Source: Anaerosomatales bacterium (GTDB lineage: Bacteria > Actinomycetota > Coriobacteriia > Anaerosomatales > Anaerosomataceae). From it: a stretch of DNA of 64,000 nt. The translations under genes and the position numbers were made by a program. Location of the stretch: NCBI GenBank assembly GCA_030019445.1, contig JASEEU010000005.1, positions 62,001 to 126,000 of the forward strand, read 5' to 3'. Shown here piece after piece: positions 8,574 to 12,829 of this stretch; positions within the stretch are counted from its first letter, which is position 1; every line of letters starts with the position of its first letter. The notes below the pieces were generated by a model. That model saw only the letters and a list, made by a program, of their open reading frames with translations. It was not told the origin of the DNA and made no database searches.

Positions 8574-9791
8574 ATGGCGCAAGAGGCGCACGGCGCGCTG
8601 TATGACCTGCTCGCGGTCAGGGGCGTGTCTCGTCGCGACTTCCTCAAGTACTGCGGTTCCATCGCAGCGACGCTGGGGTTGTCGGAGGCGATGGTGCCCC
8701 AGATCGCCGCTGCCATCGAGTCCGGAGCCAAGCTCAAGCCGGCTCTCTGGCTCAACGGCGGCGCGTGCACAGGGTGCACGGAGTCGGTCGCGCAGGCCGA
8801 TTCGCCCGACGTCGCCACGATCGTCCTCGAGATCCTTTCGCTCAACTACTTCGAGACGGTCATGGCGGCAGCTAGCGATGCAGCCGAGAAGGTCAAGGAA
8901 GAGACCATCGCGGAGGGCGGCTACATCCTGATCTACGAGGGTTCGGTCATGACCGGTTTCGAGGGCGGAACGCTCGTCGTGGCCGGGAAGACTGGCCTGG
9001 AGCACCTTAAGGAGGCCGCGGAGAACGCTGAAGCGATCATCTGCGTGGGCTCCTGCGCGGTCGACGGTGGCTGGGTCATGGGCCGCCCGAACGCCGCAGA
9101 GGCCACCGGAGTTCAGGGCTTCCTGAACCACGAGGGCATCGCGACGCCCGTCGTGAACCTGCCGACCTGCCCGGTCAACCCCGAGTGGGTCGTGGCCATG
9201 GTCGTGCAGTACCTGCTCGTCGCCGGCGATGACGCGGCGAAGTTCCTTGAGATGACCCCCATGGTCACTCGTAGGATCACGGACGCGGTGTACGGCACCG
9301 ACGTGGACCTCCTCTTCCCGAAGTCCCTCTTCGGCCAGACGATCCACGACAACTGCCCGCGTCGCGGCCACTTCGAGAACGGTGAGTTCGTCACCGAGTT
9401 CGGCAGCGAAGAAGAGGCGTTGGGATACTGCCTCTACAAGGTCGGCTGCAAGGGTCCCCAGACCTTCACCCAGTGCCCGGTCACGCGGTGGAATCGCCGT
9501 GCGAGCTGGTGTGTCGAGTCCGGCTCTCCCTGCATCGGCTGTGGCGGCCTGAACTGGGTCGACAACAACACCCCGTTCCTGATGAGGCTCTCCGACATGT
9601 GGTTGGGCGATGGGCTCACCTACGTCCAGCCCGGCTCCATCGCCGCCGTCGCTGGCGGCGTCGTGGCTGCCGGCCTCGTGGTGCACGGCCTCGGCATGAA
9701 GGCTGCCGGCCGCGTACCGGGCGGCGCCCCGACCGAGGAGATGAAGGAGTACGACCGGAAGCGGATGGCGAAGAAGGGAGGCGATAAATAG
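8574..9791 (+). CDS. [NiFeSe] hydrogenase small subunit
   Basis: 405-residue electron-transfer subunit of a group 1 membrane-bound hydrogenase. A Tat signal (SRRDFLK, Arg20-Arg21) sends the folded heterodimer outside. Proximal cluster: Cys65, Cys68, Cys161, Cys199. Distal: His258, Cys261, Cys286, Cys292. Medial: Cys301, Cys313, Cys320, Cys323. Standard [NiFe] enzymes have Pro at the 313 position and a [3Fe-4S] cluster; Cys here predicts [4Fe-4S], as in [NiFeSe] enzymes. A C-terminal membrane helix (~355-375) anchors it to the cytochrome b. ATG 8574 has AAGGAGG 7 nt upstream; the upstream extension is not hydrogenase-like. Its stop overlaps the large-subunit GTG by one base (TAGTG). Confidence 0.97.
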   Translation: MAQEAHGALYDLLAVRGVSRRDFLKYCGSIAATLGLSEAMVPQIAAAIESGAKLKPALWLNGGACTGCTESVAQADSPDVATIVLEILSLNYFETVMAAASDAAEKVKEETIAEGGYILIYEGSVMTGFEGGTLVVAGKTGLEHLKEAAENAEAIICVGSCAVDGGWVMGRPNAAEATGVQGFLNHEGIATPVVNLPTCPVNPEWVVAMVVQYLLVAGDDAAKFLEMTPMVTRRITDAVYGTDVDLLFPKSLFGQTIHDNCPRRGHFENGEFVTEFGSEEEALGYCLYKVGCKGPQTFTQCPVTRWNRRASWCVESGSPCIGCGGLNWVDNNTPFLMRLSDMWLGDGLTYVQPGSIAAVAGGVVAAGLVVHGLGMKAAGRVPGGAPTEEMKEYDRKRMAKKGGDK

Positions 9792-11464
9792 TGGCTCGCG
9801 TATCGATCGATCCGGTGACCCGCATCGAGGGTCATCTGCGTGTCGATGTCGAGGTTGACGGCGGCGTCGTTACCGACGCCTGGGTCACCGGTACACTGTG
9901 GCGCGGCATGGAGAAGGTCCTTATCGACCGGCATCCTACCGACGCGTTCTACATCTCGCAGCGTATCTGTGGCGTCTGCCCGATCTCGCACTCGCACGCC
10001 TCCGCGCTCTCTTCCGAGCAGGCTTTGGGCATCACGGTCACGCAGGGCGCGCGGCTCGTCCGCAACCTCATCGAGGCCGCCCAGTACCTGCACAGCCACA
10101 TCCTGTGGTTCTACACGCTTGCCGCGCTCGACTTCGTCAACCCGGTGAACGCGCTGTCGGCCGATATCGCCGACACGTACGCGCTCGCCCAGGCAGCCGG
10201 CACGCGCGCCGCGGACTTCGGCGCCATCGCCACTCGCCTGCAGTCGTTCGTCGACAACGGCCAGCTCTCGATCCTCTCGGGTCACTGGTGGGACCACCCG
10301 GCCTACAAGCTTCCGCCGGAGCTCGATCTCATCGCCACCGCACACTATCTCGAGGCTCTCGAGATGCAGGCCGTGGCAGCCGAGATCATCGGTATCCTCG
10401 GAGGCAAGTTCCCGCACCAGATGACGTCGGTACCTGGCGGTACCGCGTTCGTCCCGACCGAGAGCAAGCTGGACGACATCCTGTTCCGCTTCCTCAAGGT
10501 CAAGGACTTCATCGACACGGCCCTCATCCCCGACACCCTCGCGGTCGCGCCGTTCTATCTGGACGCCGTCGGCTACGGCAAGGGCGTCGGCAACTTCCTC
10601 TCGTGGGGCGTGTTCGAGGAAGCCGGCTTCGACGCCTACAAGCGCTTCCTCCCGCGCGGTTTCGCACAGGGGCTTTCGCTTGAGCAGGTCGAGCCGACGG
10701 ACGTCACCGAAGACGTCTCGCACTCGTGGTACAAGTCCGCGAGCGGTCTGAACCCCGCCGACGGCGAGACCGTCGCCGATTACACGGGCTACGACGCAGA
10801 CGGCAAGTACTCGTGGGGCAAGGCAGCCCGCTGCAAGGGTCTCCCGGCCGAGGTCGGACCCCTCGCGCGCATGGTCGTCGCCTACCTCGCAGAGGCCTCC
10901 GGTCAGGCCCTCACGCCTGATTCCTTCGGTGCGATCCGCACCCCCAAGGTGCTCATCGACAGCACCCTCGAGGCCCTTGGCGTGCCCGGCCAGCCTGAGG
11001 TCCTCCTCTCGCTTCTCGGCCGTATCGCCGCACGCAACCTCGAGGCCGCGTACGTCGCCGACCTGTCGGTCGCATGGGTGAACGAGCTCATCGGCCACGT
11101 CCGCGAGGGTACGCTGGACGGCTTCTTCGCCGAGCCGACCACGGACACCGGCAAGGGCGCCGGCCTGTGGGAAGCCCCGCGTGGATCCGTCGGTCACTGG
11201 ATCGACGTCCAGGGCGGCAAGATCAAGAACTACCAGGTCGTTGCCCCCACCACGTGGGACATCGCGCCGCGTGACGACAATAACGTCCGTGGTCCGATGG
11301 AAGAGGCGCTCATCGGCGCTCCCATCGAGGACGCCGAGCGTCCGCTCGAGGCGCTGCGGATCATCCGCAGCTTCGATCCTTGAATCGGCTGTGCGGTTCA
11401 CGTGGTTGAACCCAAGACGGGCAAGAAGGCGACTGTCATGTCCAAGCCGATGGGGGTGATGTAG
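9791..11464 (+). CDS. [NiFeSe] hydrogenase large subunit, TGA read as selenocysteine
   Basis: Catalytic subunit for H2 oxidation or production. The N-terminal motif RICGVCPISHSH supplies Cys60 and Cys63. A TGA at 11381-11383 (codon 531) falls exactly where the first Cys of the C-terminal Asp-Pro-Cys-x-x-Cys motif belongs. The same frame continues Ile-Gly-Cys534-Ala-Val-His537, then 20 residues to TAG 11462-11464, giving 557 residues. Cleavage after His537 by the protease encoded downstream fits the family. A hairpin after the TGA fits a bacterial SECIS. If TGA were a stop, two of four Ni ligands would be missing. GTG 9791 has GGGAGG 9 nt upstream. Sec-insertion genes (selA-selD) are not in the window. 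Confidence 0.93.
11395..11412 (+). promoter_or_regulatory. Candidate bacterial SECIS hairpin
   Basis: GGTTCA / CGTGGT / TGAACC: perfect 6-bp stem and 6-nt loop. The loop begins 17 nt after the TGA (11381-11383), has G at its second position and contains GGT. These match published bacterial SECIS rules (loop 16-37 nt after UGA, G in the first two loop bases). It lies within the coding sequence, as bacterial SECIS elements do. Confidence 0.75.
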
Positions 11465-12106
11465 GTGGCTGCTCACGCTCACTACCGTGAGGCGCACCCG
11501 CTGGTGTTCGTCATCACCCACTGGATCAACCTGGTCTGCATGGTGATGCTCGCGTTCTCCGGCTTCTACATCCACTACCCGTTCTTCGACGGCTTCATGG
11601 GTGTGGCCCGCGGCATGCACTTCGTCGCGATGTTCGTGATCATCATCAACCTCACCTTGCGCATCATCCTTGCGTTCACGGTCAAGACCGCGACCCAGCT
11701 GGGCTCGCGTGAGGTGGAGACGGACATCAAGAACTGGCTGCCGCAGAAGGAGAACCGGCATCAGTTCTGGCCGACGGTCAAGTACTACCTGTTCCTGAAG
11801 AAGGAATCGCCGATCTCGGCCAAGTACGGCTCGCTGCAGAAGATCGCCTACCTGGCAACGGTCCCGCTGACCTATCTCATGGCGTACACCGGCTTCGGCC
11901 TCTACGGTCCCACTGCGGACTGGGGCTTCTTCGCCGGCGGCGTCGACATGGTCGGTGGCCCGATGAACATGCGCATCATCCACTACTTCGGGATGTGGGT
12001 GTTCATCATCTTCACCATGATCCACGCCTACCTGGCGAACATCTACAGCTTCGCACCGAGCAGGATCATCTTCGCTTGGAAAGAGACTGTGGAGAGCGAG
12101 CACTAG
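11465..12106 (+). CDS. Hydrogenase cytochrome b subunit
   Basis: 213-residue di-heme membrane protein that carries electrons between the hydrogenase and the quinone pool. Four membrane helices at ~13-32, 48-70, 125-145 and 170-195. His19, His52, His173 and His187 are likely heme ligands, in the HyaC/HupC pattern. GTG 11465 directly follows the TAG of the large subunit, so the two are translationally coupled; that junction itself supports reading through the TGA at 11381. GGGGGTGA upstream serves as the ribosome site. A strong terminator follows. Confidence 0.93.
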   Translation: MAAHAHYREAHPLVFVITHWINLVCMVMLAFSGFYIHYPFFDGFMGVARGMHFVAMFVIIINLTLRIILAFTVKTATQLGSREVETDIKNWLPQKENRHQFWPTVKYYLFLKKESPISAKYGSLQKIAYLATVPLTYLMAYTGFGLYGPTADWGFFAGGVDMVGGPMNMRIIHYFGMWVFIIFTMIHAYLANIYSFAPSRIIFAWKETVESEH

Positions 12107-12250: not shown

Positions 12251-12829
12251 ATGTCAGACACACCGCGCATCCTCGTCCTGGGGATCGGCAACCCGCTCAT
12301 GCTCGATGAAGGGGTGGGGGTGCGCGTCGTCGAGGAGCTCGACCGTCTCTACGAACTCCCTGACACCGTGAACGTCGTGGACGCCGGGACGATGGGGCTC
12401 GGCATGATGCCCCTGTTCAAGGGTATCGACGCCATGATCATCGTCGATGCCGTGGAGGGCACGGGCTACGCGCCGGGAACGGTCATCAGGCTGTCGCCCG
12501 GCGACTTCGCCCCGAACCAGATCCTGCACTCGCTCCACGACATCAAGTTCGTCGACGTGTTGCAGTCATGCGCCCTCGTGGGGACCGAGCCCGAGGCCGA
12601 GTGCATCGGGATCCAGGTGGAGAGCATCAGCCCCGTCGAGCTCACCATCGGGCTCTCGGAGCCCGTCGAAGCCGCGCTCCCCCGCGCGCTTGCCGCGGTG
12701 CTCGTCCTGCTCGCCGAGCGTGGCATCACGGCGAAGCCCCGCCCGACGGACGATGAGCGGCGCGCTGCGTTCCTGGCTGAGATCGATCGGGCTTTCGCCG
12801 AGATGCGCGCACGGCATCAGGACGACTAG
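12251..12829 (+). CDS. Hydrogenase maturation endopeptidase (HyaD/HybD family)
   Basis: 192-residue protease that removes the C-terminal peptide of the large subunit after Ni insertion. The opening ILVLGIGNPLMLDEGVGVRV is diagnostic. Likely Ni-probing residues are Glu20, Asp66 (IIVDAVEGTG) and His93 or His96 (LHSLHD). Its expected substrate is the 20-residue extension after His537 of the large subunit. GGGAGG lies 5 nt before the ATG. Other maturation genes (hypA-F) are not in the window. Its end overlaps the convergent histidine kinase gene by 4 nt. Confidence 0.95.
   Translation: MSDTPRILVLGIGNPLMLDEGVGVRVVEELDRLYELPDTVNVVDAGTMGLGMMPLFKGIDAMIIVDAVEGTGYAPGTVIRLSPGDFAPNQILHSLHDIKFVDVLQSCALVGTEPEAECIGIQVESISPVELTIGLSEPVEAALPRALAAVLVLLAERGITAKPRPTDDERRAAFLAEIDRAFAEMRARHQDD

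Follow-up and report, generated by a model that had tools for sequence, protein, structure and literature searches.

A 2026 review confines the [NiFeSe] subclass of hydrogenases to sulfate reducers and methanogens (PMC13188914), and HydDB gives [NiFeSe] variants for groups 1a, 3a and 3c only. Here we describe a hydrogenase operon in a 64,000-nucleotide stretch of an actinobacterial genome (contig JASEEU010000005.1; the whole stretch is called the window below), in which the large-subunit gene contains an in-frame TGA at a nickel-ligand cysteine (Cys), the place taken by selenocysteine (Sec) in [NiFeSe] enzymes. HysAB of Desulfovibrio vulgaris and Desulfomicrobium baculatum (HydDB 1a variants) resembles the window enzyme in having Sec first in the UxxC motif and four Cys at the medial cluster, but the window enzyme lies in a separate large-subunit clade, is joined to a b-type cytochrome gene, belongs to an actinobacterium rather than a classical sulfate reducer, and is more similar to ordinary [NiFe] enzymes in the PDB (417 bits) than to [NiFeSe] enzymes (336 bits). 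The methanogen enzymes VhuU/VhuA and FrhA (groups 3a and 3c) have Sec at the corresponding UxxC, but their similarity is remote only (20.7 bits to VhuU). The Coriobacteria-type [NiFe] hydrogenases of HydDB group 1i, on the other hand, form the sister clade and share the same four-gene set and the same Fe–S ligand motifs, but Coriobacteriia outside the order of the window's genome have Cys where the window locus has TGA and a hairpin.

From the sequence of this locus and its relatives, we consider it highly probable that the operon encodes a membrane-bound, cytochrome b-linked H2-uptake [NiFeSe] hydrogenase of the Coriobacteria-type lineage (probably HydDB 1i), exported by the twin-arginine translocation (Tat) system, in which UGA is read as Sec by means of a selenocysteine insertion sequence (SECIS)-type hairpin. 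[NiFeSe] hydrogenases as a class are already known; what would be new is the Sec form of a Coriobacteria-type uptake hydrogenase. Our literature search on Sec hydrogenases in Coriobacteriia, Actinomycetota or OPB41 returned nothing relevant, most subscription papers lying outside its coverage, and an earlier report is possible. The corresponding operon of Anaerosoma tenue and Parvivirga hydrogeniphila has been described as group 1i [NiFe], with selenium unmentioned, and those members of the order that have been cultured, obligate anaerobes, are reported to grow on H2 with thiosulfate, sulfur or Fe(III) (PMC9686372). Because this published annotation calls the enzyme [NiFe] without selenium, databases may well contain truncated large subunits.

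Conservation and proposed decoding of the in-frame TGA

The large-subunit frame starts at GTG 9791 and is halted after 530 codons at the TGA in the list of open reading frames (ORFs) of the window. Read through this codon, it continues as RSFDP-U-IGCAVH-VVEPKTGKKATVMSKPMGVM and closes at TAG 11462-11464, and the family profile PF00374 covers the read-through protein to the profile end (508 of 508 positions). A preliminary description of the window had placed the TGA at the first Cys of the nickel motif DPCxxCxxH, with a run of 26 codons to the TAG and a direct junction with the cytochrome b gene, and each of these details proved correct; in the Cys homologues, TGC or TGT stands at exactly this codon.

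Among 61 relatives, taken from the same family or order as the window's genome (G000), 57 have a large subunit with one in-frame TGA (counted from the match list; mostly 58–73% protein identity), and it falls at the DPUxxC site wherever the codon was read. Three of the other four (G024, G034 and G041) are 65–77% complete and gave fragments or no match, while the fourth, G040, is 99% complete and is discussed below. Outside the order, all 17 matching Coriobacteriia in a draw of 396 genomes from the phylum have a large subunit free of stops. The TGA is also carried by a single-contig genome (G002, Coriobacteriaceae EMTCatB1, 1.84 Mb), by four independently named public records at the same codon (L009–L012), and by G008 (L035) and G012 (L044), which are probably the cultured Anaerosoma tenue and Parvivirga hydrogeniphila, an identification that we infer, as we do the order name Anaerosomatales. 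Sequencing or assembly error was rejected on the evidence of the 57 relatives and the independent assemblies, and an assembly error is very unlikely because the single-contig genome has the same TGA. One further locus, L072 (G048:C44:53967-55589), has the motif DPUVGCGVQ, in which Gln stands in place of the His expected just ahead of the protease cut and the in-frame UGA is kept.

A standard gene caller closes the ORF at the TGA, as it would if this were a true stop and the product a truncated protein of 530 residues, whether from a pseudogene or as a subunit lacking its final CxxC. This is very improbable given the recurrence of TGA in relatives at such levels of protein identity, the conserved hairpin, the intact operon, and the loss of two of the four nickel ligands that truncation would entail. 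The sequence behind the TGA, moreover, behaves as coding sequence of fixed length: the ratio of non-synonymous to synonymous polymorphism (pN/pS) across 29 family members is 0.40 over the 25 codons after the TGA, as compared with 0.30 in the 30 codons before it and 0.56 beyond the terminal stop codon, a stretch in which the following gene begins and is often read in a different frame, and the post-His tail of 20 residues is kept within the family.

In-frame TGA occurs in two genes of G000, the hydrogenase and selD, as might also be the case under a genome-wide reassignment of TGA (code 4 or 25 type) or under read-through as Trp or Cys by a near-cognate tRNA. However, TGA is used more often than any other codon as an ordinary stop in the window, closing 17 of 32 long ORFs, the two in-frame sites are classical Sec positions (hydrogenase UxxC and SelD GUxxK), and tRNA-Sec, selA and selB are present, such that we give this explanation hardly any weight at all. 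In L009–L011, TGA even serves as the true terminal stop of the same large-subunit gene, and this, together with its use as an ordinary stop in the window, indicates that decoding is context-dependent and does not reflect a change of code.

Bacterial SECIS elements are modelled as a hairpin shortly downstream of the UGA with a G near the start of the loop. The window offers such a context: a 5′ arm GGTTCA (11395-11400), a loop CGTGGT (11401-11406) and a 3′ arm TGAACC (11407-11412) would form the RNA hairpin GGUUCA-CGUGGU-UGAACC, whose arm begins 11 nt after the UGA and whose loop opens 17 nt after it with CG. Scoring the six stem pairs in each of 70 distinct Sec loci shows pairing in 418 of 420 cells (99.5%). 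The loop has 6 bases in 54 loci and 5 in 16, and as the better-pairing option was taken for each locus, the count is biased in favour of pairing. When the 3′ arm is shifted by 1–3 nt, pairing falls to 13–56%, and 1000 reshufflings of the arms gave a maximum of 388 paired cells. Changes have occurred on both sides of the stem: counting from the loop, the third pair is T-A (54 loci), C-G (13) or G-C (3), the sixth is G-C, T-A or C-G, and some of the stem changes also alter the protein (VFEP/VIEP vs VVDT) with pairing maintained. By stem score, the hairpin is absent from the Cys homologues (median 10, vs 18 in Sec loci); the accompanying Mann–Whitney p of 4e-18 is inflated by the kinship of the sequences, and it is the changes on both stem sides that carry the argument. 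Synonymous recoding of the window peptide yielded an equally good hairpin in 0.9% of 20,000 draws.

The selenocysteine machinery

The Sec reading of the TGA, as put forward in the preliminary description, is supported not only by this conservation and by a hairpin that tracks the TGA but also by the sel genes of the genome itself, whose absence that description had named as grounds for refutation. G000 (2.09 Mb, 23 contigs, 97.6% complete) has selD, selA, selB and tRNA-Sec(UCA) side by side on one contig (G000:C16:287738-294013), all above cut-off: selD at 287738 (365.9 bits), selA at 289193 (608.3 bits), selB at 290590 (388 bits) and tRNA-Sec at 293921 (73.9 bits; typed by ARAGORN as SeC, anticodon tca). 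SelD of G000 itself holds an in-frame TGA (KSG-U-AAKW) at the classical Sec/Cys site (L069, G000:C16:284000-296000). In G040, the nearly complete relative mentioned above, the enzyme has Cys (TGC), the hairpin is absent, and neither a selA match nor a tRNA-Sec was found above cut-off; here, loss of the Sec machinery and loss of Sec go together. Three other relatives (G001, G014 and G039) have two strong tRNA-Sec genes each.

Several observations weigh against a Sec-containing enzyme. Four genomes that are at least 95% complete and have the TGA gene (G009, G013, G036 and G045) gave no selA match and no strong tRNA-Sec; we ascribe this, without proof, to gaps in multi-contig draft assemblies, which is perhaps the cause. 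The sole formate dehydrogenase alpha match in G000 (G000:C17:134996-137986) is free of in-frame TGA, a search of G000 for GrdA found none (a weak test, as the control genomes gave no match either), and SelD and the hydrogenase are the only selenoproteins found in that genome. By plain folding energy, the 63-nt region does not stand out from shuffled sequences (z 0.33), such that the case for the hairpin rests on comparison. Lastly, insertion of Sec is read here from DNA and not from protein. An Rfam scan of the window gave no matching element besides tRNAs. Weighing these points together with the conservation of the TGA, the paired stem and the sel cluster, we hold with very high probability that this is a real selenoprotein gene.

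Phylogenetic placement

In trees built with the Sec site and the tail removed, the Sec enzymes of the order group together as a single clade (support 99/97, with 14 rows in the careful tree). Its sister is a Cys clade (99/96) that combines other Coriobacteriia with three Cys copies belonging to the order itself. The joint clade has support of 100/100 and includes 10 Cys rows, of which seven come from Coriobacteriia that lie outside the order; the same picture is obtained with 90 rows. This clustering with Coriobacteriia uptake hydrogenases, together with the small-subunit, large-subunit, cytochrome b and protease genes being found together, suggests that the enzyme probably belongs to the Coriobacteria-type lineage of HydDB group 1i.

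The kinship with sulfate-reducer enzymes that the preliminary description brought up thus applies to the chemistry and not to the descent, as the trees set the window enzyme in a separate hydrogenase lineage. For the alternative that Sec is inserted but the enzyme came from sulfate reducers as a [NiFeSe] hydrogenase of the HysAB type, one might point to the same Sec position, to the fourth Cys of the medial cluster, and to matches with two NiFeSe hidden Markov models, NF033181 (520 bits, the top NCBIfam model for the large subunit) and NF045518 (434.9 bits). However, both matches lie below their cut-offs (600 and 780, respectively). D. vulgaris HysA, the one PDB sequence representing that enzyme, is placed elsewhere, near L122–L123, grouping with L122, L123 and L132–L137 across starred branches, whereas the window clade is sister to the Cys enzymes of Coriobacteriia, and a tree that unites all Sec rows in a single clade is rejected (approximately unbiased test, p-AU 0.00015). 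With the PDB scores given above pointing the same way, acquisition from sulfate reducers seems a very unlikely origin. The medial-cluster motif of the small subunit (SWCVESGSPCIGC, vs NWPVDAGHPCIGC in 1h2a) does have the fourth Cys of a [4Fe-4S] cluster, but so do the Cys relatives of the same clade, and it is hence not Sec-specific.

The distribution of Sec and Cys requires four changes, and the trees give no direction of gain versus loss. In two genomes of the order, the Sec enzyme is accompanied by a Cys isoenzyme of its own lineage (L060, G015:C2:25920-27545; L061, G010:C5:19284-20909). A recent Sec-to-Cys change as the origin of these copies was rejected, as the tree sets both in the Cys clade; it is possible that such a Sec/Cys pair acts as a selenium-responsive switch. 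We lean towards the broader view that the ancestor of the Anaerosomatales already had Sec at its hydrogenase nickel, that the trait runs through the whole order, and that its origin or retention was independent of HysAB; in this view, the pairs in G010 and G015 serve as a possible selenium switch and G040 lives with Cys and without Sec machinery.

Other Sec hydrogenases came to light in the same comparison. A second Sec lineage, 40–53% identical to the window enzyme and with the same hairpin (L063–L068, L106, L112, L113, L116–L121, L125–L127), is hosted by other Actinomycetota families and by some genomes of the order, and three genomes (G049, G055 and G057) hold both lineages; in the trees, the second Sec clade consists of L063–L066, L106, L112 and L116–L127. 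L122–L124, from f24 genomes of another Actinomycetota family, are HysA-like Sec hydrogenases with a different stem (GGTGCA/TGCACC or TGCATC), the best PDB match of L122–L123 being 5jsu (436.9 bits). One genome with a Sec copy (L119) also has a Cys copy (L134, G227:C44) with a degenerate hairpin-like stretch, GGTCCATGTGATTGAGCC, which may be left over from an earlier Sec codon.

The operon and a proposed pathway

The operon comprises four genes (Table 1): the TAG of the small-subunit gene shares one base with the GTG of the large-subunit gene, whose own TAG directly adjoins the GTG of the cytochrome b gene. The small subunit has a Tat signal (RRDFL), a proximal CTGC motif and a C-terminal hydrophobic stretch, and the cytochrome b also matches TIGR02125 at 110 bits, slightly below the cut-off of 121.5.

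Table 1. Features of the hydrogenase operon, in window coordinates.
Feature	Position	Strand	Evidence
Hydrogenase small subunit	8574..9791	+	TIGR00391 275 bits, above cut-off; PF14720, PF01058
Hydrogenase large subunit, group-1 [NiFe] type, 557 residues including one predicted Sec	9791..11464	+	PF00374 515.8 bits
In-frame TGA, codon 531, at the first Cys of the C-terminal CxxC pair of nickel ligands (DPUIGCAVH)	11381..11383	+	
Coding tail behind the Sec codon, IGCAVH + 20 residues	11384..11461	+	pN/pS, fixed length
SECIS-type hairpin	11395..11412	+	Stem pairing, 70 distinct Sec loci
Ni/Fe-hydrogenase b-type cytochrome, membrane electron exit	11465..12106	+	PF01292 87.2 bits, above cut-off
HyaD/HybD-type hydrogenase maturation endopeptidase	12251..12829	+	TIGR00072 121.9 bits, above cut-off

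We propose that SelA would charge tRNA-Sec(UCA) with selenophosphate supplied by SelD, and that SelB, bound to the mRNA hairpin, would bring the Sec-tRNA to the UGA, so that translation could run on for the 26 codons to the TAG. Sec and Cys of the UxxC motif would then ligate nickel, after which the HyaD-type protease would cut off the tail after His, as happens in other [NiFe] hydrogenases. The dimer would be exported by the Tat system, and electrons from H2 would pass through the Fe–S clusters of the small subunit and cytochrome b to the membrane pool. What the sequences show directly is the gene anatomy, the sel machinery, the joint conservation of TGA and hairpin, and the phylogeny, while Sec insertion itself, Ni–Se ligation, the order of the maturation steps and the uptake direction in the cell are inferred.

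If correct, this reading extends [NiFeSe] hydrogenases past sulfate reducers and methanogens to a widespread subsurface actinobacterial order, and H2-dependent growth of Anaerosomatales would be expected to hinge on the availability of selenium. Within one lineage, enzymes with Sec and with Cys would offer a clean comparison of the benefit of selenium, and, if the trait is indeed order-wide, its members would provide a natural series for the role of selenium in subsurface H2 oxidation. The preliminary description linked Sec to possible oxygen tolerance or fast H2 turnover, both of which go further than the sequence data; as noted above, the cultured representatives are obligate anaerobes. The proximal motif CTGC, as compared with CTCC in Hyd-1, is without the two extra Cys that make up the six-Cys proximal cluster of O2-tolerant group 1d; because of this, any oxygen tolerance of the window enzyme could rest only on selenium chemistry. 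In EMTCatB1, whose genome carries the TGA gene, a NiFe hydrogenase (1c0059-61) is highly transcribed (PMC7943316); as to its identity with the homologue of the window gene, a crude count of minus-strand genes before 400 kb gives 85.
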